From the NCBI GenBank assembly GCA_036504815.1, contig DASXUN010000008.1:1-64000 (forward strand): DNA of 64,000 nucleotides, in the 5' to 3' direction. Under the pieces are notes generated by a model, which was not told the DNA's origin, did no database searches, and saw nothing but the letters and a program-made list of their open reading frames with translations. Source of the stretch: Gemmatimonadaceae bacterium (GTDB lineage Bacteria > Gemmatimonadota > Gemmatimonadetes > Gemmatimonadales > Gemmatimonadaceae). Every line of letters begins with the position of its first letter. Position 1 is the first letter of the stretch. This document shows, piece after piece, positions 57 to 39,085 of this stretch. A program made the position numbers and the translations under genes.

Positions 57-3047
57 CTACGGAGTTGCCTTTCGCTCCTCGGCCTTCTTCGCCGTCGGAT
101 CCACGAGTGATCTCCGATCCTTCAGGTGCTGTTCCATCTGCAGCCGCGGCACCCCGTCCTTCAGCCAGTCCGGCGCCGGCATGTCGCGCAGGAACGTGTC
201 GAACCACTCCTGCATGCGCACGGCGTAGTCCTTCTGGTTGGCGGGACGGGACAGGCCGTGGTTCTCGCCGACGTACTCGAGCAGCACCACATCCTTGCCC
301 AGCTCGCGCAGCGTGTTGTAGTACGTGATCCCCTGGTTGAAGTCCACCGCGCCGTCGCGGTCGTTGTGGAGGATCATGAACGGCATCTTCAGGTTGTTGG
401 CGAACCGGTTCGGCGAGTTGCGGATGTATGGGTCGGGATTGCGCGCGTAGCTGTCGCTGAACCGTCCCTGGCTCGAGATGAAGATCGGCTGGTTGGCCGA
501 GCCCGAGTTCCAGTAGACCGAACTGAACATCGAGACCATGTCGGTGAGCGGCGCGCCGGCGATGGCCGTCTTGAAGATGTCGGTCTGCGTCGTGATGAAC
601 GTCGTCTGGTAGCCGCCCCAGCTGTGCCCCTGCAGGCCGACGCGCGAGGGATCCACGATGCCGGTGGCAATGGCGGCCTTCACCGCCGGCACGACGCACG
701 CCACCGCGGAACGCCCCGGATCGTCGAGCTTGTAGGTGATGTCGGGCTGGAAGAACGCGTAGCCGCGGGACGTGTAGACCGCGGGGTTCGCGTAGCGCGT
801 CGCGTTGGGCTGCGGATAGACGTTGTAGCCCTGCGACAGCTTCTCGTAGATGTACGTCAGCGTCGGGTACTTCTTGCCGTTCTCGTAGTTGGCCGGCAGG
901 AAGAGCGCGCCCTGCAGCGTGTCGCCGTGGTCGCAGACGTAGTTGACGAGCCGCGCGCCGCTCGACCAGAGCACGTCCTTCTGCTGCGGGTTCGCGTCGG
1001 TCAACCGGCGCTCGTTGACGAGCCCCGCATCGGCGGCGTACACGTCGGGGTACTTCACGACCGTCTGCCGCGTGAAGAACCAGGTGTCGGCGTCGCGCGC
1101 CTTGCGGTAGTCCACCTTGTTCTCTTCCCAGGTGATCACCGTCGCGCCGCCCTTGATGGCGTCCACGCGCGACAGCCCTTCCTTCTTGGTCCACTCCCCG
1201 TACGTCTCGAAGAGGAGCGGCTTGGCGACGTCGATGCCGCGCTCGCGATACGGCGCACCCACGCGGGCCTGATACCGGATGCGGTCCTTGCGTCCGTTGG
1301 CCGTGAGGTTCTGCGCCGCACCCTTGAGCGGGAGCTTCCACACGTCCCAGTTGTCGCGCACCAGCAGCGCGCTCCCGTCCTTGCTCCAGCCAAGCGGCGG
1401 CGCGGCCTGCGGCTTGATGGTGTTGTGGTCGTCCTCGTCGTCCCAGAACTTCGCGTCCACGCCCGTGGTCAGCGTGCGGGTGGTGGCGGTGGCGAAGTCG
1501 TAGACCTTGTAGTCGCCGTCGTCGTAGAACGCCGCGCGCTCGCCATCGGGCGAGAAGGTGACGCCGCCGCCGAAACCGCCACCGCCGCGCAGCTTGGTCG
1601 CGAGCGGCTTCCGCGCGCCGGTGGTGATGTCGATGGCGTAGACGTCGCGGAACGCCTTGCCGTCCACGCTTGCCTGCCGCTCGTACGGCGTGATGTCGGT
1701 CCCCACCGCCCAGCGGTCGCGCGAGGCCGTCTGCACGTCGCGCACCTTGGCGTCGGCGAGCCGCACCACCTTGGCCGTGCCGACGTGGTACGCGGCGAGG
1801 TAGCTGAACGTCTTGTCCTGCGCCTCCTGCACCTGCTGCTGTGCCTGCAGGCGTGGATCCTTCCAGTGCCACAGGATGAGCGACGGCATGTCCTCGTCGG
1901 TCTGCGGCGCGGCCGCCACCTGGCCGGTGTTGCCGGCGCCTGGCGCGGTGCCACCCGGGCTGGGCGGCGTGAAGTTGCCGGCCGCTTCACGCGGACGCGG
2001 CGGACGCGGCTCGCGCAAACCAAAGTAGAGCACGGCCTGTGTCTCGCCCCAGCGCGGCGAGCGGTCGCCGCTCACCACCAGGCCACCGTCGATGCCGGCC
2101 GACTTGGCGTTGACCTCGAACGACGTCGGCGCCGCGCCGTTGAGTCCCTTGAAGCCGAGCACGCTGAACGACGTGTCGCTGGTGGCCGTGTCCACGGTGG
2201 AACGCAGGATGGCCAGCGCGTCGCCCGAGTCGATCCAGGCCAGGCGGCGGTAGCTTGCCTTCGCCGCGTCGAGCGAGCGCGTGACGCCGGTGGCGACCTC
2301 GCGCAGCTGCAGCGAGTTGCCGATGAGGTCGCGCGCGTCAAGCGTGTAGGCGAGCCAGCGTCCCGATTCATCGAACGCGAACTCGCTCACCCCCGCAATG
2401 GTGATCGGCGTGCCGCCGGCGAGGTTCACGACTTCGAGCACCGTGCCGCCGCCCGCGGGCGCGCCGCCGCCCGCGCCCCCCGCCGGCGCCGCATCGGGCG
2501 CCGTGTGATGGATGGCGATCCAATCCGACTTGTCACCGCCAAAGCGATAGGCGCGCACACGCTCGAAGTCGCGCTTGGTCCCCGTGGCGAGTTCCACCAC
2601 CGACAGCCTGTTGCTGAGCGAGGCGCGGGTGCGCCGCGCGCGCTTGGCGTCGGCCGACTTGGGATAGACCACGAACGCCGCCCACTTGCCGTTGCCCGAG
2701 AGCGAGACGGGTGCCAGCGGCAACGCGCCGCCGAAGCCGCCGAAGCCGCCGAAACCGCCCGCTGCCGGCGCCTCGCCGACCGGGAACTTCATCTCCTTGG
2801 CACCGGATGCGGTGGCGCGTATCACCACGTCGCCATCCCCCTCGTTGGGGGCGAGGACATAGGCGAACCACTTGCCGTCATTCGAAACCTGCGACGACCG
2901 AATGGACTTCCAGGTCAGCAGGTCGGTGAGCGACAACGGCTGCGGCGTGGCCGGCTTGGCCGCGGCGGGCTTCGCCGCCGTGGAGTCCTGGGCCGCGCCC
3001 AGGATCGGTGCCGCGAGAACGGCGAGGAGCACGAAGAGACGGCGCAT
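57..3047 (-). CDS. Secreted S9-family serine peptidase (prolyl oligopeptidase/DPP-like)
   Basis: This is a 996-aa exported peptidase that should cleave peptides after proline or small residues. The start at 3047 is chosen because it opens directly on a signal peptide (MRRLFVLLAVLAAPILG). The open frame 36 codons further upstream has no such signal. Residues about 40-750 form a long beta-propeller-like region with Gly-rich insertions (GGFGGFGGFGG near residue 100). The C-terminal alpha/beta-hydrolase domain holds the triad: Ser809 in GHSWGG, Asp898 in HNDRDGAVD and His930 in GENHGL. The gene is divergent from mntH with about 130 bp between them. The family call is firm; the natural substrate is unknown. 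Confidence 0.93.
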   Translation of the reverse strand: MRRLFVLLAVLAAPILGAAQDSTAAKPAAAKPATPQPLSLTDLLTWKSIRSSQVSNDGKWFAYVLAPNEGDGDVVIRATASGAKEMKFPVGEAPAAGGFGGFGGFGGALPLAPVSLSGNGKWAAFVVYPKSADAKRARRTRASLSNRLSVVELATGTKRDFERVRAYRFGGDKSDWIAIHHTAPDAAPAGGAGGGAPAGGGTVLEVVNLAGGTPITIAGVSEFAFDESGRWLAYTLDARDLIGNSLQLREVATGVTRSLDAAKASYRRLAWIDSGDALAILRSTVDTATSDTSFSVLGFKGLNGAAPTSFEVNAKSAGIDGGLVVSGDRSPRWGETQAVLYFGLREPRPPRPREAAGNFTPPSPGGTAPGAGNTGQVAAAPQTDEDMPSLILWHWKDPRLQAQQQVQEAQDKTFSYLAAYHVGTAKVVRLADAKVRDVQTASRDRWAVGTDITPYERQASVDGKAFRDVYAIDITTGARKPLATKLRGGGGFGGGVTFSPDGERAAFYDDGDYKVYDFATATTRTLTTGVDAKFWDDEDDHNTIKPQAAPPLGWSKDGSALLVRDNWDVWKLPLKGAAQNLTANGRKDRIRYQARVGAPYRERGIDVAKPLLFETYGEWTKKEGLSRVDAIKGGATVITWEENKVDYRKARDADTWFFTRQTVVKYPDVYAADAGLVNERRLTDANPQQKDVLWSSGARLVNYVCDHGDTLQGALFLPANYENGKKYPTLTYIYEKLSQGYNVYPQPNATRYANPAVYTSRGYAFFQPDITYKLDDPGRSAVACVVPAVKAAIATGIVDPSRVGLQGHSWGGYQTTFITTQTDIFKTAIAGAPLTDMVSMFSSVYWNSGSANQPIFISSQGRFSDSYARNPDPYIRNSPNRFANNLKMPFMILHNDRDGAVDFNQGITYYNTLRELGKDVVLLEYVGENHGLSRPANQKDYAVRMQEWFDTFLRDMPAPDWLKDGVPRLQMEQHLKDRRSLVDPTAKKAEERKATP

Positions 3048-3181: not shown

Positions 3182-4546
3182 GTGGCCATTCCTACCTCCG
3201 CCCCTCCGCGTCCCGAATCGCCCGTCGGCGGCTTCCGGCGCGCCCGCACCGCGCCGTCGCTTTCCGAGTCGTACCGCACCATCTCGGTGGACGGCACCAC
3301 CTGGTTCCGCAAGCTGCTCGCCTTCGCCGGTCCGGGGTACCTGGTGGCCGTCGGCTACATGGACCCGGGCAACTGGGCCACCGACATCGCCGGCGGCTCG
3401 CGCTTTGGCTACACCCTGCTCAGCGTCATCCTCCTCTCCAACCTGATGGCGGTCCTGCTGCAGGGACTCTCCAGCAAGCTGGGCATCGTCACCGGACGCG
3501 ACCTCGCACAGGCCTGCCGCGACCACTACTCGCGCCCAACCGCGATCTTCCTCTGGTTCCTCTGCGAAATCGCCATCGCCGCCTGCGACCTGGCCGAGGT
3601 CATCGGCTCGGCGATCGCGCTCCACCTGCTCTTCGGCATCCCGCTGACCTGGGGCATCATCATCACCGCGGTGGATGTGCTCATCCTGCTCGCGCTGCAG
3701 CGGCGCGGCTTCCGCGTGCTCGAGGCGCTGGTCATCGTGCTGATCGCCACCATCGGCGCCTGCTTCCTCTTCGAGATGGTCATCTCGCGCCCCGACCTCG
3801 GCGCGGTGGCGCGCGGCTTCATCCCGACGCCGGAGATCGTGCGCAATCCGGAGATGCTCTACATCGCCATCGGCATCCTCGGCGCCACGGTGATGCCGCA
3901 CAACCTGTACCTCCACTCGTCGGTGGTGCAGACGCGGCGCTACGCGGAAACGGCGCAGGGGAAGCGCGAGGCGGTGCGGTTCGCGTTCATCGATTCCACC
4001 ATCGCCCTCACGTCGGCGCTGTTCATCAATGCCGCCATCCTCATCGTCGCGGCCGCCACCTTCCACACGACCGGCAACACGCAGGTGGCCGAGATCCAGG
4101 ACGCGCACAAGCTCCTCACGCCGCTGCTGGGCGTGGCCGGCGCGTCGACGGTCTTCGCGCTGGCGCTGCTGGCGAGCGGGCAGAACTCGACGCTCACCGG
4201 CACGCTCGCCGGCCAGATCGTGATGGAGGGCTTCCTGGACCTGCGTCTCCGCCCGTGGGTGCGCCGGTCCATCACGCGCGCGGTGGCCATCGTGCCGGCG
4301 GTCATCGTCAGTGTGATGTACGGCGAGAGCGGCACGGCGAGGCTCCTCATCTTCAGCCAGGTGATCCTCTCGCTGCAGCTGTCGTTCGCGGTCTTCCCGC
4401 TCGTCATCTTCACGTCGGACAAGGCCAAGATGGGTGAGTTCGCGAACCCGCCCTGGCTCAAGGGGCTGGCCTACGTGGTGGCCGGCTTCATTGCGACCCT
4501 CAACGGATGGCTGCTCGTGCAGACCATCGCGGGATGGACTTCCTGA
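3182..4546 (+). CDS. mntH: Nramp-family Mn2+/Fe2+:H+ symporter
   Basis: The 454-aa inner-membrane divalent metal importer has the full Nramp signature: DPGNW at residues 61-65 in TM1 and MPHNLYLHS at about 238-246 in TM6, which together form the metal site. About 11 hydrophobic segments follow a soluble N-terminus of roughly 45 residues. The start is GTG at 3182, immediately after the operator. The stop overlaps the next gene in a TGATG junction. The order transporter, stress protein, DtxR-type regulator points to a manganese-responsive, autoregulated operon. Confidence 0.95.
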
Positions 4547-5708: not shown

Positions 5709-5714
5709 GTCGCG

Positions 5715-5755
5715 TGGTGCGCGGGCACGGGCACGGTGGGGTGCACGGGAAGGGG
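5715..5755. repeat. Family C repeat, single arm
   Basis: A 40-nt stretch with GGGCACGGGCACGGTGGGG and a GGGAAGGGGA tail. It aligns over its whole length with the copy inside the coding sequence at 32853-32893 and with arms of the long hairpin at 12044-12236. It sits just downstream of the regulator stop codon. No mirrored arm is visible here. Confidence 0.65.
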
Positions 5756-5765
5756 AATACCCCAC

Positions 5766-5794
5766 TTGCGTGAATCTCACTACTAAGCTAATAT
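5766..5794 (+). promoter_or_regulatory. Predicted sigma70-type promoter of the YceI gene
   Basis: TTGCGT at 5766-5771, a 17-bp spacer, then TAATAT at 5789-5794. The predicted start is about 5801, leaving a 60-nt leader before the ATG at 5862. The segment is much more AT-rich than its surroundings. Confidence 0.6.
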
Positions 5795-6425: not shown

Positions 6426-6580
6426 CGGAGACGGCGAGCGGAACGAGGACGGGGTAGAGGCTCGGCGAGGCGGAACGAGGTGCGGAACGAGGAGGGAGGT
6501 CGCTGGTGCGCCAGGGACCTCCCTCCTCGTTCCACCCCTCCTCGCCCCTCGCCAGGCCTCTACCCCCTCCTCGTTCCGCC
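6426..6580. repeat. Family A long inverted repeat (complete copy)
   Basis: The inner stem is a perfect 18-bp match, left arm GGAACGAGGAGGGAGGTC. The loop contains its own small hairpin (CTGG, TGCG, CCAG). Further out, GGCGAGG pairs with CCTCGCC, and GGGGTAGAGGC pairs with GCCTCTACCCC. The element fills the gap between the YceI stop and the methyltransferase start. It may end the upstream transcript. Confidence 0.85.
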
Positions 6581-6591
6581 ATATTGTTGTC

Positions 6592-10176: not shown

Positions 10177-10377
10177 CTACTCCTGTTCCGGCTCGGATTC
10201 ACGCACCGCTGTTTCATCGGCCGCCAGCTGCCGCTTCAGCCGCCCGTTGCGGCGGAGCGCGTCACGCAGCAGAAACTCGATCTGCCCGTTTAGGCTGCGC
10301 ATGTCATCGGTGGCCCAGCGCTGGATGGAAGCCAGCACTTGGTCGTCGATGCGGAGCAGAAAGGGTTTGCGCGGCAT
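10177..10377 (-). CDS. Arc-like ribbon-helix-helix DNA-binding protein
   Basis: The 66-aa protein begins with the beta-strand MPRKPFLLRID. Two helices follow (QVLASIQRWATDDMRSLNGQIEFLLRDALRR), as in Arc/CopG/MetJ-type repressors, and then a charged tail. The frame is open 25 codons further upstream, but that part is read from the family B hairpin (repetitive Pro-Ser-Ala-Ile words) and is not credible. As the only DNA-binding protein of the operon it may bind the near-palindrome at 11375-11390 over the operon promoter. No toxin-like partner is recognisable, so a toxin-antitoxin role is not supported. Confidence 0.82.
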   Translation of the reverse strand: MPRKPFLLRIDDQVLASIQRWATDDMRSLNGQIEFLLRDALRRNGRLKRQLAADETAVRESEPEQE

Positions 10378-10378
10378 T

Positions 10379-10472
10379 GGGCAGATGGCAGATGGCAGGT
10401 GGCGGATGGCGGACGGCGGATGGCGGATGCGAGGGCATCCGCCGTCTGCCATCAGCCATCTGCCATCAGCCA
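10379..10472. repeat. Family B inverted repeat (complete copy) inside an operon
   Basis: The left arm repeats GGCAGATGGC and GGCGGATGGC. The turn is GGATGC, GAGG, GCATCC. The right arm is the mirrored series GCCGTCTGCCATC and GCCATCTGCCATC. It separates the SPFH gene from the ribbon-helix-helix gene within one leftward operon. It could act as an attenuator or mRNA-stabilising hairpin there. Confidence 0.8.
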
Positions 10473-11437: not shown

Positions 11438-12043
11438 TTACTTCTTCTTACCGGCCGCGGGTTTCCACTTCGGCGTCGGTCCGAATGGCGGAATTCGCTC
11501 CTCGCGCGCCGAGTACTCGATGACGAGTGCCAGGCGCCGCTCGCGCGTGGCGGGGAGCTTGGCGCTCATCACCCATGACGTCATCAGCTTCCGGTATCCC
11601 GGCGGCTGCACCGTGAAGAACGCCCACGCGCGCCGGTTCGCCCTGAAGCGCTTCGCGATCGCCGCGGAAAACTTCAAGGGATCATTTTCGAAGGGATAGA
11701 CGCCGGAGCGCTCCGGCGTGCGGCGGGCGAATGCCGCGAGTCCCGCGGGCGTCATGCGACCGGCGGCAATGAGCGCCTCGACCTTGCCGATGTTGACCTT
11801 GCTCCAGATGGAGTTCGGCTTGCGCGGCGTCCAGCGCTGCATGTAGCAGATCTCGTCGATGGACTTCACGACGCCATCGATCCACCCGACGCACAGCGCC
11901 TCGTCGAGCGCTTCCTTGTAGACGACCCCGCCCTTGCCGGACGCTTTCTTGTAGTAGCCGATCCAGAGTTCGGTCTTCGACGCGCCGTGCTTGGCGAACC
12001 AGGCGCGGAGAGCCTTGGTGGTTTTGAAGAAGGTGGGCTTCAT
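11438..12043 (-). CDS. YdeI/OmpD-associated family protein
   Basis: The 201-aa cytoplasmic protein matches the YdeI family in LWIGYYKKASGKGGVVYKEALDEALCVGWIDG, QRWTPRKPNSIWSKVNIGKVEALIAAGRMTPAG and a C-terminal helical region. Family members are small proteins without a known enzymatic role; some carry the legacy label bacteriocin protection. The start MKPTFF at 12043 directly abuts a family C repeat. The longer open frame on this strand reads repeat words (CPCACTPPCP in another frame) and is rejected. The gene ends 31 bp before the SPFH promoter. Confidence 0.88.
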   Translation of the reverse strand: MKPTFFKTTKALRAWFAKHGASKTELWIGYYKKASGKGGVVYKEALDEALCVGWIDGVVKSIDEICYMQRWTPRKPNSIWSKVNIGKVEALIAAGRMTPAGLAAFARRTPERSGVYPFENDPLKFSAAIAKRFRANRRAWAFFTVQPPGYRKLMTSWVMSAKLPATRERRLALVIEYSAREERIPPFGPTPKWKPAAGKKK

Positions 12044-12236
12044 CGGTGCACCGGCACGGGCACGGTGGAGTGCAAGGGCACGGGCACGGTGGGGTGCACG
12101 CGCACGGGCACACTGGGTAAATGGTACATGGTACGACGGGCTGGCGTTGGACTCAACAATGCACCAATTCAGTATCCCCGCACCACACCGTGTCCTTGCA
12201 CCCCACCGTGCCCGTGCCCTTGTACCACACCCTCCT
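12044..12236. repeat. Family C inverted repeat between divergent genes
   Basis: The left arm has three copies of GGCACGGGCAC words with GGTGGGGTGCA. The right arm mirrors them (TGCACCCCACC, GTGCCCGTGCC). A unique spacer of about 70 nt, more AT-rich, lies between. It separates the YdeI start from the hydrolase start, so any promoters for these two genes must lie in the spacer or in the arms. Confidence 0.8.
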
Positions 12237-13969: not shown

Positions 13970-14512
13970 TCACGGACGTCGTGGCGGCTTGGGAGTGCTG
14001 TGCTGCTGAAAGCTGACGACCAGTCCGCCGCGATCCCGGCAACTCTCCTCGGAGACGGGAGAGTAGAGGTAGGTGCCGTCCTTGCACCGGGCCGTAGCCG
14101 CCGGGGGCGGCGGGCCGTCGGGCGCCGGCACAGGCTCTATGGCCCGTTGCGCGGCCCGCTGGACTGCGGGCGCGGGCGGCGGAGGGGTAACCGCCGGAGC
14201 GTCCGCCGCCGCCGGCGCTTGCGCCGCCGCTCTAGCCGCGGGACGGACGGAGTCAACGGGTGCGCTCACCGACTTGGGCGCAACCGGTGTGCTTCGCACT
14301 GCATCCTGGTTGCGCGGCGCAACAAGCGTCGCAGCCCGGGTCCTCGGCGCGACCGTTTCTGGACGCGGGGCGGAGGCCGGCGGCGGCAGCAAGGCGGGAG
14401 CGCCGTCCTTCTTCGGGGGCGGCGGCGCGGCTTGCGCGCCGAGCGTCGCCATCGGTGAGCTCAGTGCGATGGCGACAAGGGCGACAAGGGCGGAACGACT
14501 CATCGTGCTCAT
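13970..14512 (-). CDS. Secreted Ala/Pro-rich protein with C-terminal DUF3761
   Basis: The 180-aa protein has an N-terminal signal peptide (SRSALVALVAIALSSPMATLGAQA). A low-complexity Pro/Ala linker follows, residues about 28-138. The small Cys-containing C-terminal domain ARCKDGTYLYSPVSEESCRDRGG resembles DUF3761, with two cysteines that could form a disulfide. Its ATG overlaps the stop of the giant Ig-like lipoprotein gene (ATGA), so the two are co-translated and probably act together at the envelope. Role unknown. Confidence 0.83.
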   Translation of the reverse strand: MSTMSRSALVALVAIALSSPMATLGAQAAPPPPKKDGAPALLPPPASAPRPETVAPRTRAATLVAPRNQDAVRSTPVAPKSVSAPVDSVRPAARAAAQAPAAADAPAVTPPPPAPAVQRAAQRAIEPVPAPDGPPPPAATARCKDGTYLYSPVSEESCRDRGGLVVSFQQHSTPKPPRRP

Positions 14513-17500
14513 GGTATCACCGTCACGTTAGGTGCCGTGTATGTTCGGTAGTTCGCGTTCGTGAACGTGGCGCTCGGCGTCCCTGTCGCCGTGGCTTTGA
14601 GATAGAAGTCCACGTAGTTGAGGTTGGCGGGGACCGTGACAGCAGTCACGACTGCGTTATTCTTGCGAATCTCGATGCCGGACGCCGCGCTGATGGAGAA
14701 CGTGGTAGCGGCCAGCACGTTGCGTGTATTTCCGTCGGGATCCCTGGTGTACAACGTCACCAGCACGGAGTCGCCCACCTTCATGGATACGGCCGGCCAA
14801 CTGACGAGGTTGTCGACGCGTCCGGAATCGACCACCACGGTCGCGCTATCGGGGATGTGGTACGGTGACGGGATGGACATCGTGATCGTGTCGGTCCCGA
14901 TCACGCTGCCGATGGTGCGGAAGTAGGCGTAATAGCTGCCGGCCGGGATGGATATCGCCGACGGCACCGTCGCCTTCACCGTGCCGACATGCCCGAGGTT
15001 CACGGTGGTCGCCGCCACCATGTAGTCGGGCGTCGCGCCGTACAGGTTGTCCGTGTATTGCCCAAGTCCGAGTTTCGTCGTGGTCCAGTTCAAGTACGCG
15101 ATCGGGGTGGAGACGGATACGTTGCTGGTCCCGGTGTTGTACTTGTACAGCGCCGCCCGCGCATCGGTGGCCGACAACTGCGACGTGCCGACGGCGGCCG
15201 GTGTCCACTTGGCGCTGTTGTTGTAGTACGAGCCCGCCGGAATGGTGACGGTCGCGGAGTCGATGGAGGCTACTGCCCCGCTCGACGAGGACAGCGTGAC
15301 CGTCACGTTCTCCGTGGTGTAGTGATTGCTGCCGTTGGCATCCTGCGCGTAGACGGTGATGCCCTGTGCGCCGGAGGTCGTCCGGGGCGCCGTGTTCGTG
15401 GTGATGTAGAACTTCGGCTGCGTCACCTGCACCTGCATTGGTGACGCCGGTCCAAATCCGGTGGCGGTGGCCTGGATCTGGATCGTCCCGAGCGTGTCCT
15501 GGGCGACCACGCCGAAGTAGGCGTAGTACGAACCCGTCGGAATCGTCACCGACGCCGGCACCGTCGCCACGCGCGTATCGGTGCTGACGAGGTTCACCGT
15601 GACGGGCGACGTCACGTTGTTCTGCGTGTAGACGTAGAAGCCGGTGGTGCCGGACGTCTGGCGCATCCCGAGCATCGTGGATCCGGCACTGAACGCCAGT
15701 GACGGACCGGTCACGGTTACGACGTTCGTGGTGACGCTCGGCAGCACGCCCGCCGAGTCGGCAATGGTCAGGCTCGCGGTCCCCGGGCCAAAGAAACTGT
15801 AGTAGGCGTAGGTGTAATACACGCCACGCGCGATCCGGACGTACGTTTGCGTTGGCTTGATGACCGTCGTATCGCTTGAAGTCACGCGAACGACGATCGT
15901 GTCAAGCACGTAGTGACTGCTGTTCGTCGAATCCGCGGCGTAGATCGTGATGGATCCCTGCGGACTGGTGGTGAGGGCCGTCGCGGGCAGGCCGGACGCG
16001 GTGATACGCGGCGAACTGACCCGCACGAAGGCCGTATCCGGGAGGTAGCCCGGTGCTGACGCGATCAGCGTGTCAATTCCCGTCGCCATTCCGGCAAAGC
16101 CGAAGTACGCGTAGTAGCTCGCGGCCGGGACCGTCACCGAAGCCGATGAGAGCGAGTCCGCTGCTGCGTTCGTCTGGGAGATCGTCACGGCCAGCGGCGT
16201 GGTGCGGTTGTCCGGCGTGTAGACGTAGAAGGAACTCGGCCCGTAATACTGCCGGCGGCCGAGCACGGCGGTGGTGAAGCTGAAGTTGAGCTTTGGCGTG
16301 ACGACCGTGTACTGCGCGGAGTCGGGCAGATGCCCTGGGGCTGACACGACCACCCACGTCGTTCCGAGGCCGCGCGGTGTCATCCTCGCGTTGTAGTTGT
16401 AGTAGGTGCCGGCCGGGATCGTCAGCGACGACGAATCCACCTGAATGACGCTCGTATCGCGCACCGTGATCGAGACGACGAGCGGCGTCGTGCGACTGTG
16501 CGCGGCGTTGAGCGAATCGCGCGAATAGACGTAGACGTTGTTGCTCGCACCGAACACCCGGTAGGTGCCGCCGCCCGATGTGGTGACCCGCGGTGTGGTC
16601 ACGCGCACGTAGGACGTGTCGCCCTGATACCCCGGCGCCGACGCGATGAGTGACACCGACGTGGACGTATCCAGGCCGGCGAGGTTGAAGTAGGCGTAGT
16701 ACGACCCGGCTGGAATCGTGACGGTCGCGGGTGCACCCAGCTTCGTCGTGTCCGACCTGGCGATGCTGACGGTCAGCGCCGCGACCACGTTGTTCGGGGC
16801 GTAGACGTAGCCGGCATTCACGTCCGTCTGGCCGTTGCCGATGTTGCGCGTGCCGCTCCAGTTGAACTCGAGCTTTGGCCCGACCACGGTAACCAGCACG
16901 GAGTCGGGGGTGTGCCCGCCCGCCACGACCTTGATCCACGCCGTGCCGCCCGCGCCGCCGGGCTGGTACCGAATGCCGCTGCTGTAATAGGAGCCGGCGG
17001 CAATCACTGGCGTCTGGTCCAGGATCTGGATGACGCTTGGGTTGCTCGAGCTGATCGTCAGGGCCAGCGCGCTCGTCCGGTAGTGCGCGGTGCCGACGGA
17101 GTCCCGCGCATAGACGGTTGTCGACTGGATCGGGGAGGTGGTATTGATCGTCGTCGTGCAGCAGATCGTGGTGCGCGGCGTCGTGACGATCATCGTGAGC
17201 GTGTCCGGCGTCCAGCCTATTGCGCTGATGATGACTTTCGCGGTGCCCACGCCCCTGGCCGAGACGGTGAAGTAGCGGTAGTACGAGCCCGCGGGAATGT
17301 CCGAGCCTCCGTTGCCGCCAACGGTCACGACCGTCGTGTCGGTGCTGGTGAACGTCAACGGAACGGCCAACGATGAGCTTTGCGGCGTCCAGACATACCA
17401 GCCGCTCTCAAACTGCCCGGCGCCAAGACGGGCCGTCGCACCGGCGCTGATGCTCAGCACCGGGGCCGACACGTACAGCGTGGAGGCCGTGCCGTTCACT

Positions 17501-20500
17501 CCCGTGGCCACCGGCGTGATGGTAGTGTTGCCCGTTGTGCTGCCCAGCGCGGTGATGACGACATTGCTCGCGAGCTGCCCGGCCGGAATGAAGGCCGGGT
17601 CCGGCGAGACCTGCGCGCGCCCGGCCGTGCCGTACGTGAACGTCACGTACGTTCCGCCGGCGGGTGATGGATCGCTCAACAGCACTTGCGACGCGACCTG
17701 GTCGGTCGCATTCAACGACCAACTTGACTGCGCCATTCGGATGTTGGCTTGCACGGCGACGGCGGCGGTGTCGCCCTTGTAGACGCTGGCGGCATCGGTG
17801 GCGTAAATGAGCGTGGTGCCGGCATTGCGGCCGTTGAGCGTCGCATTGGCCGACGTGCTTCCCGCCGCGATCGTGATGCTCGCCACCGAGAAGAAGGCGT
17901 TGGTGTCGCGGGCGGCGAGGTTGACCGTCACCGGCGAGGCGTTTGGCCGGCTCAGCAGGATCGGGATCGATGTACTCGAGCCGCGTCCCACCGTGAGCGT
18001 GTCGCGCCCGAACGAGATGATCGCCGGTACCGTCGTGCTCACCACGACCACCGCATTGTTGGATGTGACGGTGCCGCTCGTCGCCGTGATGTTGCTCGAA
18101 CCCAGCGTCACGCCGGTCACCACACCGGTGGAGGCGTTGACGGTCGCGACCGCCGGCGTGCCGCTGGCGTACGTGAACGTCCCGCCGGAGATGTATCGGT
18201 TGTTCGCATCCTTGCCGCGCGCCGTCAACTGCACGGTGCCGGTGATGCCGATCGTGTCCGGAGTCGGTCCGAGCTCGATCGTCGCAAGCACTTGCTGGAC
18301 CTTGAGCGCCGCAGACCCGGTCTTGCCATCCGCCGAGGCCTGGATGGTGGTCACGCCGTTGGCGTTCGACAGCGCGCGCGCCCGCGTGGCGCTGATGCTG
18401 TCCAACAGGGCGACGGAGCCATTGGTGCTGAACCAGGTGAACGTCACCCCCGTCATCGGCGCGTCGAGCGTGTCACGCGCCTCGGCGCGGAAGTAACGGC
18501 CGATGCCCAGCGACGCGAGCGCGGTCGTATCACTGACCGGCACGCCTGAGGAATCGCGGCCGACGATGATCCGCGTGATCGGGGTGAGCACATTGACGAT
18601 CGCCGTTCCCACCACCGCCCCGGAGGCCGCTCGCACCTGCGTCGAGCCGAGGGCGTTCGCCGTCACCGTGCCGCCGGTGTCCACCGACGCGACGGTGGGG
18701 GTGACCGTGCTCCACGCAAACGATTTGACGCTCGGCATCGCATTGCCCATGCCGTCCACGGCGCTCGCCGTGAAGGCATAGTTGCGCGTCTTGTAGATGT
18801 TGCGATTTCCGGGCGTGATGCTGATCGTCGCCACCCGCTGCTGCACGACGATCAGCGCCGAGTCCTTCGTGCCGCCGGCCTCGGTCGCGACGATGTACGT
18901 CGAGCCGTTCGCGAGGGCGGTGACGAGACCCGCGGTGCTGACCGAGGCGACCGTCGGCGTGCGGCTGACCCACGTGAACGTGCCGGTCATGTTCGAACCG
19001 GCGCCGTCCTTGGCCTGCGCCGTGAGCGTGCGCGTCGCGTTGAACGACACGATCGTGTCGAGGCGCGGCGAGACGACGGTGGTCGCAATGGTCCCCTGCG
19101 CCGTGGCCGCGAACGTCACGGGCGAACCCGTGAGTCCGGTGCTGGTGACCGTCACGCTCTGCGCCCCCGGCGTGATGCCAAGGGTCCACGTCGCGCGGGC
19201 GCGGCCGTTCGGATCGGTGGCGGTCGTCTGGCCCGAGAGCGAGCCGCCGCCCGTCGCAATCACCCAACCGACCGTCGCGGCGCTCACCGGATTGCCGAGC
19301 GAGTCGGTGACGAGCACCACGAGCTTCTGCGGCAGCGCCGCCCCGGCTCCGCCGGTCTGTGCATTGCCGCTGTCGGCCACGATCATCCTGGCGGGCGCCG
19401 GGTTGACCGTGATGCTGGTGGTCACTGCCGCGGCATATCCGGTGGCGGCGAACTGCAGCGTGTAGGTGCCGGCCTTGGTCAGGCGAAGGGCGCTGAACGA
19501 GGCGACGCCCGCCACCGCGTTCACGGTGGTCGTGCCGCCCACGACCGCGCCGGCCGGGCCGGTCGCGACGGAGGCGGTTACCGCACCCGTGAATCCGGTT
19601 TGCACCACGCCCAACGCGTCCTTCGCCTGCACGACGACGGCCGGCGAGAACGTGACCCCCGCCACCTGCGTCGGCGTCGGCGGCGTACTGATGGCGATCT
19701 GGTTGCTGCTTCCCCCCGTCGCCGTCGCCGAGACCGTCAGCGAGGGCAATCCGGTGGCCGAGGCGGTGAAGGTCTGCGTGCCGTTGATGAGGCCGAGTGT
19801 CCACGAGACGTTGACGACGCCCGATGCATCGGTCGTGGCACTCGTCGGCGTGATCGAACCACCGCCGCTGGTAACGGCCAGCGTGAGCGGCACGTTCGCG
19901 ATGCCGTTGCCCAGCGCATCGCGCACCTGGAGCGTGATGGCCGAGAGCGCGGCGCCTGCCGCGGCGATCTGTCCGCCGCCGGCAATGACGGCGATCGCGG
20001 TCGCTGCGCCCGGCGCGACGTTGAACGGCGCACTCGTGCCGCCGGTCATCCCGGTCGCCGACGCCGTCAGCGTATATCCCGCGCCGCTGCGCGTGATCGT
20101 CAGGCTGTCGAACGTGGCCACGCCGGCCACGGCATTGCGTGCAAGCGTGCCGTTCAGCGTCGCGCCGCTGGGGTTCACGCCCAACGCCAACGTGATGGCG
20201 CCCGTGAACGACGTCACCGGATTGCCCGATGCGTCCTGCGCCGTCACGGTGATTGGCGGAGCGATCGCCATCCCCGCATCGACGGTGGCGGGCATGGCAC
20301 CAAAGACGAGCCTCGCTGCGTCGCCCGCGGTCATGTCGAAGGTGGCGCTCGTGACGGACGTCAGCGACGGGCTCGAGAAGACGAAGGTGAAGCCGGTGCC
20401 GGCGCGGTTGAGCGTCAGTCCGGTAAACGTCGCGACGCCCGCGACGGCGGGCACCGTGGTCGTGCCGCTCAGCGTCGCACCACCCGTGTTCGCACCCAAG

Positions 20501-21687
20501 GCGACAGTCACGTCACCCGTGAAGGTCGGGACGAGGTTCCCGGCGGCATCCTGCGCGACCACCCTGATGGCCGGCATGGCAAGGCCCGCCTTGCCCGACA
20601 CCGGTCCGGTCTGCACGGCGAGCCTCACCGGCGCGACCGAGCGCGCCGTGGCGCTGACCGTCAGCGGCGATCCCGAGAGTCCCGCGCTCGTGACGCTTAG
20701 CGTCTGCGTTCCGGCGGTGGGTCCCAGGGTCCACTGTGTGCTCACATTGCCCGACGCGTCCGACACCGCCGTGGCCGGTGAGGCACTGCCGCCGCCGCTG
20801 GCGGCGAAGGTCACCGTGACACCACCGACGCCGATCCCATCCGACGCGAGGACGCGCGCGACGATGGCCTGTGGCAGCATGGTGCCCGTCGCGGCGGTCT
20901 GGCCGTCGCCGTTTGTCAAACTGAGGCGCGCAGCGGGCAGCGTCACGGTCACGCTGGCGCTGTCGCGCGGGCCAGTCAGCAGCAGCGCATACACTTTCGC
21001 GGTGCCGCGCCCCACCAATTCTGCCGTGCCCGTGGTGGCGTTGACGGTGACCACGCCGGCGTCCGAGGACGTGAACACAATGGGCGTTCCAGGCAATATC
21101 TGGCCGCTCGCCGAACGCGCCTGGGCGTTAAACGTGATGGACTGACCGCGGATCCCCGAAACCGTCCGCGGCGACATCACGACGGACGCCGCCGTCGATC
21201 CCGGGCCGGTGTACTGCACCGGCACCTGCACCGGGGCCGGTGGTGTTCCACCCGTACCCGGGGTGACCGTGACCGGGATGGGGCCGCCCTTGAAGACGGT
21301 GTCGCCTGCCGCGTTGACGTACCCGAGATTCAGGTTGAGCGGCACGCCGCTCGTCGGCGCGTTGGCGGGAAGCGGGACGTTGAGCGACAGCAGGAGCGAA
21401 TCGGCGCCGGCGGGGAAGCTCACGACCGTGTCGAGCGCGATCGACCCATCCTCGCGCCGCAGCGTGATGCGCACACGTTCAAAGGCGACCTGCTCCAGGG
21501 CGGAGCGCAGGGCACTGGCTGGCACCGCCGTTTCGTACTTCGGCTCGATCGCGAAGGCCGCGATCCGCTTGAAGACGGAGGCGGGGGTGGAAACCGGGCC
21601 GGTGACCTCGCGACCGCACGCAACCAGCACGGCGATGAGCAGTCCAGCGGCGACGGTGAGGCGGCGAATCGGCGAAGCGCTACGCAT
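14509..21687 (-). CDS. Giant Ig-like repeat lipoprotein (2392 aa)
   Basis: Start ATG at 21687, because it opens on a lipoprotein signal (MRSASPIRRLTVAAGLLIAV followed by LVAC, Cys24). Residues about 40-190 form a domain shared with the neighbouring lipoprotein (KGGPIPVTVTP, then PVQVPVQYTGPG). Big_1-like Ig units run from about 190 to 865 (for example TAATGTMLPQAIVARVLASD, GNVSTQWTLGP). Big_2-like units follow to about 1270 (TPTVASVSTAGLVTALANGS). The last 983 residues are ten alternating repeat units, described separately. It is probably a lipid-anchored surface fibre or adhesin; Ig-like domains suggest structure or adhesion, but no ligand is known. DUF3761 is coupled downstream. Confidence 0.92.
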   Translation of the reverse strand: MRSASPIRRLTVAAGLLIAVLVACGREVTGPVSTPASVFKRIAAFAIEPKYETAVPASALRSALEQVAFERVRITLRREDGSIALDTVVSFPAGADSLLLSLNVPLPANAPTSGVPLNLNLGYVNAAGDTVFKGGPIPVTVTPGTGGTPPAPVQVPVQYTGPGSTAASVVMSPRTVSGIRGQSITFNAQARSASGQILPGTPIVFTSSDAGVVTVNATTGTAELVGRGTAKVYALLLTGPRDSASVTVTLPAARLSLTNGDGQTAATGTMLPQAIVARVLASDGIGVGGVTVTFAASGGGSASPATAVSDASGNVSTQWTLGPTAGTQTLSVTSAGLSGSPLTVSATARSVAPVRLAVQTGPVSGKAGLAMPAIRVVAQDAAGNLVPTFTGDVTVALGANTGGATLSGTTTVPAVAGVATFTGLTLNRAGTGFTFVFSSPSLTSVTSATFDMTAGDAARLVFGAMPATVDAGMAIAPPITVTAQDASGNPVTSFTGAITLALGVNPSGATLNGTLARNAVAGVATFDSLTITRSGAGYTLTASATGMTGGTSAPFNVAPGAATAIAVIAGGGQIAAAGAALSAITLQVRDALGNGIANVPLTLAVTSGGGSITPTSATTDASGVVNVSWTLGLINGTQTFTASATGLPSLTVSATATGGSSNQIAISTPPTPTQVAGVTFSPAVVVQAKDALGVVQTGFTGAVTASVATGPAGAVVGGTTTVNAVAGVASFSALRLTKAGTYTLQFAATGYAAAVTTSITVNPAPARMIVADSGNAQTGGAGAALPQKLVVLVTDSLGNPVSAATVGWVIATGGGSLSGQTTATDPNGRARATWTLGITPGAQSVTVTSTGLTGSPVTFAATAQGTIATTVVSPRLDTIVSFNATRTLTAQAKDGAGSNMTGTFTWVSRTPTVASVSTAGLVTALANGSTYIVATEAGGTKDSALIVVQQRVATISITPGNRNIYKTRNYAFTASAVDGMGNAMPSVKSFAWSTVTPTVASVDTGGTVTANALGSTQVRAASGAVVGTAIVNVLTPITRIIVGRDSSGVPVSDTTALASLGIGRYFRAEARDTLDAPMTGVTFTWFSTNGSVALLDSISATRARALSNANGVTTIQASADGKTGSAALKVQQVLATIELGPTPDTIGITGTVQLTARGKDANNRYISGGTFTYASGTPAVATVNASTGVVTGVTLGSSNITATSGTVTSNNAVVVVSTTVPAIISFGRDTLTVGRGSSTSIPILLSRPNASPVTVNLAARDTNAFFSVASITIAAGSTSANATLNGRNAGTTLIYATDAASVYKGDTAAVAVQANIRMAQSSWSLNATDQVASQVLLSDPSPAGGTYVTFTYGTAGRAQVSPDPAFIPAGQLASNVVITALGSTTGNTTITPVATGVNGTASTLYVSAPVLSISAGATARLGAGQFESGWYVWTPQSSSLAVPLTFTSTDTTVVTVGGNGGSDIPAGSYYRYFTVSARGVGTAKVIISAIGWTPDTLTMIVTTPRTTICCTTTINTTSPIQSTTVYARDSVGTAHYRTSALALTISSSNPSVIQILDQTPVIAAGSYYSSGIRYQPGGAGGTAWIKVVAGGHTPDSVLVTVVGPKLEFNWSGTRNIGNGQTDVNAGYVYAPNNVVAALTVSIARSDTTKLGAPATVTIPAGSYYAYFNLAGLDTSTSVSLIASAPGYQGDTSYVRVTTPRVTTSGGGTYRVFGASNNVYVYSRDSLNAAHSRTTPLVVSITVRDTSVIQVDSSSLTIPAGTYYNYNARMTPRGLGTTWVVVSAPGHLPDSAQYTVVTPKLNFSFTTAVLGRRQYYGPSSFYVYTPDNRTTPLAVTISQTNAAADSLSSASVTVPAASYYAYFGFAGMATGIDTLIASAPGYLPDTAFVRVSSPRITASGLPATALTTSPQGSITIYAADSTNSSHYVLDTIVVRVTSSDTTVIKPTQTYVRIARGVYYTYAYYSFFGPGTASLTIADSAGVLPSVTTNVVTVTGPSLAFSAGSTMLGMRQTSGTTGFYVYTQNNVTSPVTVNLVSTDTRVATVPASVTIPTGSYYAYFGVVAQDTLGTIQIQATATGFGPASPMQVQVTQPKFYITTNTAPRTTSGAQGITVYAQDANGSNHYTTENVTVTLSSSSGAVASIDSATVTIPAGSYYNNSAKWTPAAVGTSQLSATDARAALYKYNTGTSNVSVSTPIAYLNWTTTKLGLGQYTDNLYGATPDYMVAATTVNLGHVGTVKATVPSAISIPAGSYYAYFRTIGSVIGTDTITMSIPSPYHIPDSATVVVDSGRVDNLVSWPAVSMKVGDSVLVTLYTRDPDGNTRNVLAATTFSISAASGIEIRKNNAVVTAVTVPANLNYVDFYLKATATGTPSATFTNANYRTYTAPNVTVIP
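14512..17460 (-). repeat. Coding tandem repeat: five alternating A-B unit pairs
   Basis: Residues about 1410-2392 of the giant lipoprotein divide into ten units of about 95-105 aa with two alternating types. Type A begins with LGxGQ or LGxRQ, then FYVYTPDN, and carries VTIPAGSYYAYF. Type B has VYARDS, HYRT and IPAGTYYNY. The boundary is marked by PR or PK between A and B. The last B unit is degenerate (VPANLNYVDF). Each pair plausibly forms two beta-sandwich domains. I do not recognise the domain. Confidence 0.8.
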
Positions 21688-21757
21688 GGTCGCACCCACT
21701 GTAAGAAACACGGGCATCCACATCGGTGTCCGGAAATGGCACAACACGGGACTCTAA

Positions 21758-31543: not shown

Positions 31544-31678
31544 GAGAGACAACAGACAAACAACAGAGAGACAACAGAAAGACAACAGAAAGACAACAGA
31601 AGTATGGATGGATCTCGGACTCCCCCAAACATCTGTTGTTTCTCTGTTGTCTTTCTGTTGTCTCTCAGTTGTCTCTCG
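31544..31678. repeat. Family D inverted repeat
   Basis: The left arm repeats AGACAACAGAA-type words five times (31544-31601). The right arm mirrors them (TCTGTTGTTTCTCTGTTGTC and on, 31632-31677) around a unique centre of about 30 nt. It begins at the DUF5916 stop codon. It is AT-richer than the other families, and only one copy occurs in the window. Possible terminator or mRNA 3' protector. Confidence 0.8.
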
Positions 31679-32843: not shown

Positions 32844-34111
32844 CGGCGCCAGTGGTGCAAGGGCACGGGCACAGTGGGGTGCAAGGGAAGGGGATTGCCT
32901 CCGTCGAGGCAATCCGCGCGCAGTTCCCCGCGCTGGAACGTCTGCATGGCGGGCAGGCCATTGCGTACTTCGACGGACCCGGCGGCACGCAGGTGCCGCG
33001 ACGCGTGGTGGAGGCGATCAGCGACTACCTGTACCACCACAACGCCAACACGCACTGGACGTATCCGACCAGCGAGGAGACCGACGCCGCCATCGCCGAT
33101 GCGCGCGCGTCGCTGGCGGCGCTGCTGAACGCGTCCGCGAACGAGATCGCGTTTGGCGCCAACATGACGACCCTGACCTTCCATCTGGCGCGCGCCCTCG
33201 GCCGCGGATGGGGGCCCGGCGACGAGGTGATCATCACCGAGCTCGACCACCACGCCAATCAGGCGCCGTGGCGCGCGATCGAGCGGGAACGGGGCATCAC
33301 CATCAAGGTGGCGCCGATCAACCTCGAGACGTACGAACTCGACTGGCCGGCGCTCGAGCGGCTCATCACGCCGCGCACGAAACTGCTCGCGATCGGTGCC
33401 GGGTCGAACGCGCTTGGCACGATGCCCAACGTGACCGCGGCGGCGCGGCTCGCGCACGCGGCCGGGGCGCTCTGCTTCGTGGACGCGGTGCACTACACGC
33501 CGCACGGCGTGGTCGACGTGCGCGCGTTCGACTGCGACTTCCTGGCCTGCTCGGCCTACAAGTTCTACGGTCCGCACATCGGCGTGATGTACGGCAAGGC
33601 CACCCGCCTCGCGGCGCTCGACGTGCCGAAGCTGCAGCCCGCCCCCGATACCGTGCCGGAACGCCTCGAGACGGGGACGCAGAACCACGAAGGCATCGTC
33701 GGCGCCGGCGCGGCCGTGCAGTTCCTCGCGTCGATCGGGAGCGGAGCGACACCACGCGAGCAGGTGGTCAGTGCCATGACCGCGCTGCATGCGCGTGGCG
33801 AGCAGTTGTTCGCTCGACTGTGGGACGGATTGGGCGCCATCACGGGCGTCACGCGCCATGGGCCGCCGCCGGGGCGTCCGCGCACGCCGACCGTCTCGTT
33901 CACCATCGCGGGCGTCACGCCGGACGATGCGGCGCGCCGCCTGGCCACGCGGGGCGTCTTCGTGTCGCACGGCGACTACTACGCCTCCACGGTGGTGGAA
34001 CGGCTTGGCCTGCAGCCGGACGGAATGATTCGTGCGGGCTGCTCGTGCTACACGAATGAGGCCGAAGTCGATCGGCTGCTGGCCGGCGTCGCCGCGCTCG
34101 CACGAGCGTAA
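32840..34111 (+). CDS. Cysteine desulfurase-like (class V) PLP enzyme
   Basis: The 423-aa protein carries the fold-type I signatures ITELDHHANQAPW, AGALCFVDAVHYTPH and the PLP lysine Lys241 in SAYKFYGPH. It ends in ...GCSCYTNEAEVDRLL. This belongs to the 'cysteine desulfurase-like, SufS subfamily' that lacks an adjacent Suf system, so desulfurase activity is uncertain. The start at 32840 overlaps the dehydrogenase stop. Residues about 5-18 are encoded by a family C repeat (32853-32893), after which the normal family sequence begins (IRAQFPALER). GTG at 32879, inside the repeat, is an alternative start. Confidence 0.88.
   Translation: MTAPVVQGHGHSGVQGKGIASVEAIRAQFPALERLHGGQAIAYFDGPGGTQVPRRVVEAISDYLYHHNANTHWTYPTSEETDAAIADARASLAALLNASANEIAFGANMTTLTFHLARALGRGWGPGDEVIITELDHHANQAPWRAIERERGITIKVAPINLETYELDWPALERLITPRTKLLAIGAGSNALGTMPNVTAAARLAHAAGALCFVDAVHYTPHGVVDVRAFDCDFLACSAYKFYGPHIGVMYGKATRLAALDVPKLQPAPDTVPERLETGTQNHEGIVGAGAAVQFLASIGSGATPREQVVSAMTALHARGEQLFARLWDGLGAITGVTRHGPPPGRPRTPTVSFTIAGVTPDDAARRLATRGVFVSHGDYYASTVVERLGLQPDGMIRAGCSCYTNEAEVDRLLAGVAALARA
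32853..32893. repeat. Family C repeat copy inside a coding sequence
   Basis: The stretch GGGCACGGGCACAGTGGGG with its GGGAAGGGGA tail aligns over about 40 nt with the intergenic copy at 5715-5755. It is in frame and encodes a His/Gly/Gln-rich peptide (QGHGHSGVQGKG) at the N-terminus of the PLP enzyme. Confidence 0.75.
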
Positions 34112-37082: not shown

Positions 37083-38018
37083 CTACGCGCCGGCGTCCTC
37101 GTCGACGAACGGCACGTTGATCTCCATGCCGTCACGCGCGATGGCCACGCGCGGGAAGACTTCACGGGCCTCGCGCTCGAGATCGGACGGATCGCGCGAG
37201 TACCGCGCCGAGAAGTGCGTCAGGGCGAGCTGTTTCACGCCGGCCGCGAACGCCACCTGCGCCGCCTCGCGCGCCGTGCTGTGCCCCGTCTCCACCGCGC
37301 GCTCCGCTTCTTCATCGCCGAAGGTGCTCTCGTGGATCAGGAGATCGGCCCCCTGCGCGATGTCGATGGTGGCGCCACAGGGACGCGTGTCGCCGGTGAT
37401 CACGACGCGGCGTCCGGCACGCGTCGGACCCACGAGCACCGACGGCTCGATGACGCGTCCATCGTCGAGCGTGATCGCCTCGCCCTTGTGAATCCGTCCC
37501 CACAACGGCCCCTCGGGAATGCCGAGCGAGCGCGCGAGGTCCGGGTTGAAGCGCCCCCTCCGGATTTCCTCCACCAGCGCATATCCCACCGCGGTGACGC
37601 CGCGATGGTCCACGGCGTACGGCACCATGGCGTAGTCCTTGCGCTTCACCGGCTCGCCCGGCGTCACCTCGGTGATCTCCACCGGATAGGTGAGCCGCTC
37701 GCCGCCGAACGCATCGGCCCGCTTCATCAGTCCGGCGAGACCGCGTGGTCCCCAGACGCGCAGCGGCTCCGTGCGGCCCTGCAGCGAAAGGGTGCGCATC
37801 AGTCCCACGGCGCCGATGACGTGATCGGTGTGGAAGTGCGTGAAGAAGAGGTCGCCGAACGTGAAGCCGACCGCGTATCGCATCATCTGCCGCTGCGTCC
37901 CCTCGCCACAGTCGACCAGGATCGTCTCACCTTCGCGGACGATCGCCAGCGACGAAACCCCGCGCTCCACGGTGGGGCGCGAGGCAGAGGTGCCGAGGAA
38001 AGTGACGCTGAGGCTCAA
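37083..38018 (-). CDS. rnz: Ribonuclease Z (tRNA 3' processing)
   Basis: The 311-aa metallo-beta-lactamase-fold endonuclease cuts tRNA precursors after the discriminator base. Motifs: HFHTDH at 61-66, VITGDTRP, LLIHESTFGDEE and LTHFSARYS. The N-terminus SLSVTFLGTSASRPTVERG matches the family start exactly and requires a TTG start at 38018. This role is consistent with the tRNAs in the window, which do not encode CCA. A single arm of repeat family B lies just upstream. Confidence 0.95.
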   Translation of the reverse strand: MSLSVTFLGTSASRPTVERGVSSLAIVREGETILVDCGEGTQRQMMRYAVGFTFGDLFFTHFHTDHVIGAVGLMRTLSLQGRTEPLRVWGPRGLAGLMKRADAFGGERLTYPVEITEVTPGEPVKRKDYAMVPYAVDHRGVTAVGYALVEEIRRGRFNPDLARSLGIPEGPLWGRIHKGEAITLDDGRVIEPSVLVGPTRAGRRVVITGDTRPCGATIDIAQGADLLIHESTFGDEEAERAVETGHSTAREAAQVAFAAGVKQLALTHFSARYSRDPSDLEREAREVFPRVAIARDGMEINVPFVDEDAGA

Positions 38019-38025
38019 CGGACGG

Positions 38026-38068
38026 GGATGGCAGAGGGCGGATGGCAGATGGCGGATGGCTACCGCCT
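38026..38068. repeat. Family B repeat, single arm
   Basis: A run of GGATGGCAGAGGGC, GGATGGCAGATGGC and GGATGGC words, with no mirrored arm, lies just upstream of rnz. Confidence 0.65.
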
Positions 38069-38113: not shown

Positions 38114-39079
38114 CTACGCCTTCGCGAGGATGCCTTGCAGGCGCGTCTCGTCGATGTTGCCGCCGCTCACGATGGCGACGATAGGCGTGGCCAGGTGCCG
38201 CAGGCGGCCGCTGCGGAGCGCGGCGACGCAGACGGCGCCCGACCCCTCCGCCCGGATTCCCTCGGCGAGCCAGAGCCAGGCGATCGCGCTCGCGATCTCG
38301 TCTTCCGTCACCGTCATGATGGACTCGAGCGTGGCCTGCCCGATGGCCAGCGCATCGTCGTCGATCTGGCCGGCGAGTCCGTCGGCGAGCGTCGGCAGGT
38401 TCTCGATTTCCACCACGTGCCCCGCCTCGATGGCGAGCGACATCGCGTTGGTGCGCTCGCTCTGCACGCCCACGACGTGCACGTGCGGCGCCATGCTCAG
38501 CACGTAGGCGCCCATGCCGCCCAGCAGGCCGCCGCCGCCGACGCAGACCAGCATCGTCTGCACGGCGGGGAGTTGCTCGAGCACCTCGGTGGCCACCGTG
38601 CCCTGGCCGGCGAGCAGCGGGACGCCAAGACAGGGGTGCACGAAGGTCTTCCCTGTTTCCGCGGCGTGCGCGCGCGCCCGCACCATGGCGTCGTCGTAAT
38701 CGAAGGCCTCGTCGAGCACGCGGGCGCCGCGCTTTGCGATCCCTTCCTTCTTCACCGCGGGCGCGTTGGACGGCACGAAGATGGTGGCCTCGATGCCGAG
38801 CCGCTGCGCCGCTTCCGCGACCCCGAGGCCGTGATTGCCGGCGCTCGACGCCACGATGCCGCGCGCGCGTTCGTCGAGCGTGAGGAGGGAGAGGGCGTTG
38901 TATGCGCCGCGCACCTTGAAGGAGCCGGTGATCTGTTCCGACTCGAGCTTCAGGTAGACGTCGCCCTCGGCGAGCGACGAGAGCGCCTCCGACCGGCGCA
39001 GGGGCGTGCGCACGGCGACGCCGCGCAGGCGGGCAGCGGCTTCGTCGATCTCGGAAGCGGAGGGAAGGAGGCGTGGCAC
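38114..39079 (-). CDS. Threonine/serine dehydratase (PLP fold type II)
   Basis: The 321-aa enzyme deaminates threonine or serine, or acts as a serine racemase relative. Start: GTG at 39079 (MPRLLPSASEIDEAAARLRG), which is normal for the family. The open frame further upstream reads the family B hairpin and is rejected. PLP lysine Lys55 lies in TGSFKVRGA. ASSAGNHGLGVAEAA and the phosphate-binding loop CVGGGGLLGGM are typical. There is no C-terminal ACT domain, so it is a catabolic or short form. AVCVAALRSGRL marks the end. Confidence 0.92.
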   Translation of the reverse strand: MPRLLPSASEIDEAAARLRGVAVRTPLRRSEALSSLAEGDVYLKLESEQITGSFKVRGAYNALSLLTLDERARGIVASSAGNHGLGVAEAAQRLGIEATIFVPSNAPAVKKEGIAKRGARVLDEAFDYDDAMVRARAHAAETGKTFVHPCLGVPLLAGQGTVATEVLEQLPAVQTMLVCVGGGGLLGGMGAYVLSMAPHVHVVGVQSERTNAMSLAIEAGHVVEIENLPTLADGLAGQIDDDALAIGQATLESIMTVTEDEIASAIAWLWLAEGIRAEGSGAVCVAALRSGRLRHLATPIVAIVSGGNIDETRLQGILAKA

Positions 39080-39085
39080 TTTAGC

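Follow-up and report, generated by a model that had tools for sequence, protein, structure and literature searches.

The window, as the whole 64,000-nt stretch of DNA analysed here is called, contains long intergenic hairpins (family A) whose gene neighbours encode a YceI-family protein, a DNA methylase and an FtsX/MacB-type permease. One complete hairpin (6439-6578) lies between the YceI-family gene and the DNA-methylase gene, 13 nt past the stop of the former and 13 nt ahead of the start of the latter. Read on the plus strand, its left arm consists of the outer word CGGAACGAGGACGGGGTAGAGGC (6439-6461), which belongs to a conserved class with about 0.9 identity over all arms, a variable middle block (6462-6483), whose variation is independent of the right arm, and an inner word beginning with GGAACGAGGAGGGAGG, which together with the stem tip occupies 6484-6506 and whose tip covaries with the right arm; the right arm (6511-6578, plus strand) mirrors the left with inner word, middle block and outer word. 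A second complete copy (58444-58584) fills a convergent gene gap, with the two stop codons 7 nt and 0 nt away, and two diverged copies are located in another convergent gap (62653-62791), which also holds family A in the genomes G004, G005 and G010, and in a divergent gap (46780-46899), upstream of a promoter-like TTGATT-TATAAT belonging to the tRNA at 46967. None of these four palindromes is assigned to a strand. Two single arms were found on the plus strand: a lone left arm between two minus-strand genes (45195-45262), with no matching right arm nearby, and a right arm cut by the contig end (1-57), which adjoins the stop codon of the minus-strand gene 57-3047. The four copies and two lone arms described in the original prediction are therefore real, and the word order that it had reported as common to them is correct. 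In the palindromes at 6439-6578 and 58444-58584, arms of 60-69 nt are 86% complementary. Compared with 200 dinucleotide shuffles, the four window copies gave fold z-scores of -14.2, -10.2, -6.3 and -5.8, and none of the 200 shuffles folded as well as any of them. Scanning the window with Rfam 15 returned two tRNAs only, and no family exceeded its gathering score for the hairpins.

Family A extends beyond the window, as had been predicted. Using BLAST and a covariance model built from 23 copies, about 41 full-length copies were detected in the 3.5 Mb genome to which the window belongs (G000, 99.4% complete, like all genomes used here a draft assembly); about 820 kb of stretches from this genome were examined, and genes, hairpins and orthologs were called with custom scripts, including a home-made gene caller. 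A typical copy is 140-142 nt long and has fairly sharp ends, and the dispersed copies have a common consensus. The left arm reads from the outer word CGGAACGRGGAGGRGGTAGAGGC through about 22 nt of variable middle to the inner word GGAACGAGGAGGGAG, the tip and a short loop, and the right arm is its mirror image, so that the whole element is an inverted repeat and has the terminal inverted repeats used as a criterion for MITEs. Either orientation of a copy matches equally well, and on both strands the 5' arm is purine-rich and the 3' arm pyrimidine-rich. The outer and inner words are conserved far beyond the needs of pairing, identically in both arms; the internal period of family A itself is weak. 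In some single arms (L177:8506-8729, L101:5049-5166, L137:683-778 and L315), the outer module is repeated in tandem with a period of 32-37 nt, on one side only and with no mirror image in the other arm.

With respect to genes, family A is placed directly behind stop codons: 37 copies face a gene end, and 34 of them start at most 20 nt from its stop codon (median 6 nt). The 41 copies occupy 27 codirectional, 9 convergent and 4 divergent gaps, with one at a stretch edge, and all four copies in divergent gaps are of the diverged subtype. None of 49 long hairpins of any family in the 820 kb lies inside a gene, and some convergent gaps are little more than the hairpin (e.g., at C21:614342 and 58444). 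The genes next to family A outside the window were taken to be queA, recG, recR, rodA, hutU and coaD, names which were assigned from sequence without a family search. A TAnnnT box is present near the start of 5 of 25 genes right after a copy, compared with 7 of 234 in tight operons and 34 of 151 divergent starts, and although these numbers are small, the higher frequency after family A than inside tight operons fits transcription-unit boundaries. A T-tract after the stem (at least 5 T in 8) was found in only 1 of 82 flanks, and just upstream of the hairpin at C30:105326 and in L029 there is already a GC stem that resembles a terminator and has a T-tract. These observations make a role as terminator an uncertain inference. 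Contigs end at the repeats at window position 1 and in C26, C29 and C14. Copies had seemed to cluster on small contigs, but this was discounted, since repeats break assemblies and large contigs are copy-poor by construction.

Family A is restricted to one genus. Of 201 genomes searched in the order, 5 contain the outer word pattern, and all 5 belong to this genus. A search of 84,980 genomes found it in six MAGs with different titles; five of these are Gemmatimonadetes or carry no taxon name and one is labelled Acidobacteria. The Acidobacteria-labelled contigs with A words (L105 and L154, JACQZV01) come from a co-assembly shared with the Gemmatimonadetes MAG JACREJ01 and are probably mis-binned. 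Viral contigs and plasmids gave no family A match, and a phage or plasmid origin was rejected. Weak model matches outside the genus are long palindromes whose words are quite different and mostly heptads. Seven is the commonest hairpin-arm period in the order (a period of 7 in 9 and of 14 in 4 of 17 periodic arms). Random stretches contain between 0 (G003 and G007) and 18 (G024) long hairpins per 100 kb, and the hairpin habit is thus patchy across genomes. In the open-access literature, no paper describing such hairpins in Gemmatimonadota was found.

Where copies differ, the two arms had been claimed to differ together, on the basis of strings in four copies. These strings exist; however, at 46757 the two CGAGGGGGGACG words are not opposite each other, and when many copies were aligned and covarying pairs were sought, the differences proved non-compensatory over most of the stem. 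For the full 65-pair structure in 23 aligned copies, 86.3% of the cells were paired compared with 86.7% after shuffling, the covariation score was 0.100 compared with 0.105, and the covariation term of RNAalifold was 0.04. When the structure was slid by 1-3 columns in the same copies, pairing fell from 86% to 47-54%. A conserved fold, as originally suggested, is supported by this collapse and by the z-scores of the window copies, whereas compensatory change is not. The middle block was analysed in 39 of the 41 copies, two poorly aligned ones being excluded, and mean arm identity was 0.612 for arms of the same copy and 0.629 for arms of different copies (p 0.87). The result was alike in G004, G005, G008 and G010, and in G005 the value is even lower for arms of the same copy than for arms of different copies (0.624 versus 0.685). 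None of the 100 most similar middle-block pairs came from a single copy, and same-side and opposite-side matches were equally frequent (48 and 52), indicating that left and right arms draw on one pool; as 17 arm pairs matched at 21 or more of 25 columns, compared with 1.9 after column shuffling, this pool contains recurring block variants. The two arms of a copy thus vary independently over the outer and middle stem, where no covariation above shuffles was detected. Only the roughly 10 loop-proximal nucleotides covary (22 matches at column 64 compared with 12.4 expected, and likewise columns 62 and 68), and for the inner block 0 of 5000 permutations scored as high. All permutation tests used here assume independent copies, although related copies are not independent. 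Covariation of the arms as the main feature was rejected by permutation. Agreement of both arms in a few copies does not amount to covariation when the arms use one degenerate vocabulary, and the four original examples are such a shared vocabulary read as covariation.

Orthologous gaps were compared by reciprocal best hits between fetched stretches and by searching the proteins encoded upstream of A copies in ten congeners. Slots were picked where G000 has family A, the stretches from each congener were taken from the surroundings of its A copies, and the slot-sharing rates are therefore upper estimates: among the reciprocal-best-hit gaps, family A was present on both sides in 12 by pattern and in 2 more by eye, and on neither side in 38; in these 14 gaps a copy on one side is matched on the other by a hairpin that is of the A type or derived from it; and a long hairpin was found in 8 of 8 of the G000 slots in G010, compared with none in G002 and G007. 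In the queA slot, five genomes have family A, G008, G009, G006 and G003 have hairpins of other words and G007 has a short gap only; in the YceI slot, four genomes have family A, G003 and G009 have other words and G002 has a short stem. In the RecR slot, family A begins at the identical base past the stop codon in G000, G004, G010 and, truncated, G001. Remnants of the ends of family A were detected in G005 (RodA slot) and in G001 (RecR slot).

The text of the hairpins does not follow these slots. Orthologous copies have a similarity of 0.728, compared with 0.721 for random non-orthologous pairs from different genomes. For 93 of 121 copies the nearest relative is in the same genome, compared with 27 after shuffling, and the ortholog is never the nearest relative but ranks 6 to 69 of 120. 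The sharing of 7-mers is 0.151 between different slots of the same genome, 0.085 for the same slot in other genomes and 0.082 otherwise, and none of 1000 permutations gave a value as high. Most copies in G010 are 114-117 nt long with a short inner module, including orthologs of 140-nt copies in G000. Between G000 and G005, copy similarity (0.758) equals that within G000 (0.757), and the hairpin text of these two genomes is too close to reveal homogenisation, which is clear only at larger distance. Other families behave likewise in three gaps, where GATGGCR heptads of G000 face GACGGGA in G001 and GACGGCR in G005. Congeners often have family A, or a long hairpin of other words, in the corresponding gap. 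Slots persist and the hairpin text is homogenised in each genome, which is the pattern of concerted evolution, and the homogenising process appears to act between the copies of one genome.

The reading that we favour, and to which we would give an even chance, is that these are genus-specific boundary hairpins behind stop codons which are homogenised by exchange between copies. Judging from sequence and placement, the hairpin may mark transcript 3' ends at the boundaries of transcription units, where it would act as a terminator in both directions or protect the 3' end, and its purine-rich 5' arm and pyrimidine-rich 3' arm would read alike from either direction. Selection would preserve a hairpin at each position, and the current genome-specific words would spread among the dispersed copies through exchange, either by gene conversion or because arms and modules are copied. 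At one position some species do bear a hairpin in another word set. Against a boundary role stand the stem without a T-tract and the 4 of 41 copies in divergent gaps, and, as the congeners G002 and G007 have no long hairpins in the examined slots, the function would not be indispensable. It is a more tentative proposal that a host process with no dedicated transposase rewrites hairpins in place, leaving slots that are inherited and words that are uniform in each genome and, from species to species, drift or are swapped jointly. If true, this would be a case of concerted evolution of many dispersed, short, non-coding bacterial elements whose arms are exchanged as modules. The usual accounts of dispersed bacterial repeats are transposition or selection on structure, whereas in family A positions are common to species, sequence follows the genome and not the position, and the stem is maintained with no compensatory change. 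The family therefore allows one to ask how short dispersed sequences become homogenised in a bacterial chromosome, and whether interchangeable genome-specific hairpins set transcript ends in Gemmatimonadota.

The main rival, a serious contender but one that we think has clearly less than an even chance, is a MITE- or REPIN-like mobile element that is non-autonomous and strongly prefers sites just past stop codons. Successive families would have spread in each lineage into the same favourable gaps, and similarity within a genome would reflect recent bursts. Such an element would account for the observed dispersed copies that share a consensus and end fairly sharply, for the patchy, genus-restricted distribution with some congeners lacking family A, for the different word families at one gap in different species and for the nearest neighbours in the same genome. 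However, insertion with target duplication left no signal: duplications of at least 2 nt flank 2 of 41 copies, compared with 1.55 after shuffling, and duplications of at least 3 nt flank none. Searching for a RAYT (Y1 transposase, PF01797) gave no match in G000, G001, G004 and G008, all of which bear family A, and among the genomes scanned only G005 and G010 had matches. Gap sharing far exceeds what independent hits would give (the 8 of 8 in G010), and the identical starting base in the RecR slot of four species also argues against such an element, but burst-and-replace insertion may still explain the pattern.

It is improbable that the words are sites for DNA- or RNA-binding proteins, or DNA-uptake words, and that the hairpin is a by-product of their opposite orientation. 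This would account for outer and inner words that are conserved identically in both arms beyond pairing needs, and there is a precedent in inverted uptake words that form terminators in Neisseria and Haemophilus, at least as they are cited in PMC2267715. However, GGAACGRGG occurs 152 times in family A, 43 times elsewhere between genes and only 9 times in genes in the 820 kb, whereas uptake words are frequent inside genes, and uptake words were rejected on this scarcity; no candidate binding protein was found. Correction of one arm by the other within a copy, through replication template switching (quasipalindrome correction), is very unlikely as an account of the family. Template switching is known to create and maintain hairpins (PMC8794818), and the loop-proximal covariation would be expected from it. 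However, as there is no compensatory change outside the tip, the copying of one arm onto the other that had originally been suggested is not the main process; it is refuted for most of the stem, where covariation does not exceed that of shuffles, and is possible at most for the tip of about 10 nt. The middle block of G005 also argues against such correction, as does one-sided tandem growth of a 32-nt module at L177:8506 with the other arm unchanged. Finally, an assembly or binning artefact can practically be dismissed because, in spite of draft assemblies throughout and contigs that end at repeats, the copies are found in contig interiors, flanked by conserved housekeeping genes, in genomes that different projects assembled independently.

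ERIC and NEMIS/Correia elements are intergenic palindromic elements of 100-150 nt that form one long hairpin and are transcribed with neighbouring genes. RU (IRU) is an element of the same kind (PMC2759123). Family A resembles all of these in length, intergenic location and single long hairpin but differs in having no target duplication, in arms that are internally repetitive and drawn from one pool, and in positions that are kept as the text is replaced. The REP, BIME and REPIN sequences associated with RAYTs are short, dispersed extragenic palindromes that are species-specific, often near stop codons and form persisting populations (PMC3116915; PMC3733652; PMC8049555), and family A is likewise extragenic, dispersed and multi-copy (about 41 copies, none in a gene) and confined to one genus. 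However, a REP is defined as a palindrome of 20-40 nt with a GTAG or CGTC tag at one end (PMC3733652), whereas a family A copy has about 140 nt (114-142 nt over all units), with GTAG inside the arms and absent from the foot of the stem. The arms of family A are degenerate purine-rich words, their sequence is common to a genome and their positions are common to species. An identity with REP/RAYT systems was rejected on size and on the absence of a RAYT from G000. Short, tandemly repeated heptanucleotides of cyanobacteria and other bacteria, which as discussed in PMC4679880 are direct repeats, share the heptad words that are commonest in the hairpin arms of this order; here, in contrast, the words form the two arms of a hairpin, and the period of family A is weak. 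Inverted uptake words, as cited in PMC2267715, act as terminator hairpins, and family A likewise has a genome-specific word in inverted pairs behind stop codons, but its word hardly occurs in genes and there is no T-tract behind the stem. Intrinsic terminators include hairpins without a U-tract (PMC8355165), and a stable predicted hairpin directly behind the stop codon at unit ends resembles them; the stem of family A, however, has about 65 pairs instead of 5-20, is palindromic in both directions, lacks a T-tract and consists of repeated text.

Other hairpin families were observed in the same genome. Family B consists of hairpins and arrays of GATGGCR heptads (window 10377-10472, 38013-38060 and 39075-39265), which occur elsewhere in the genome too. 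Family C uses GGTGCAAGGGCACGGGCACAGTGGGG words (window 5714-5776, 12043-12231 and 32852-32914), and a family C-like hairpin stands in place of family A behind the YceI and queA genes in G003. Family D is a hairpin of the 11-nt repeat GACAACAGAAA (window 31555-31677) that is also found at C7:11862 and at C21:107009, 315155 and 627484. Hairpins of GATTGAGGATNNGGAATTCGG words (family E) were detected in L051 (C3:197052), L072 (C9:11802) and L082 (C8:65665 and 73532), with diverged orthologous hairpins in G005 and G010. One divergent gap in L053 holds two adjacent near-perfect inverted repeats of another kind (C31:4180-4269 and 4403-4492, with 31/32 and 28/31 matches). On the minus strand of the window, a reading frame of about 2400 codons (14509-21717) contains several internal repeats of 30-66 nt.
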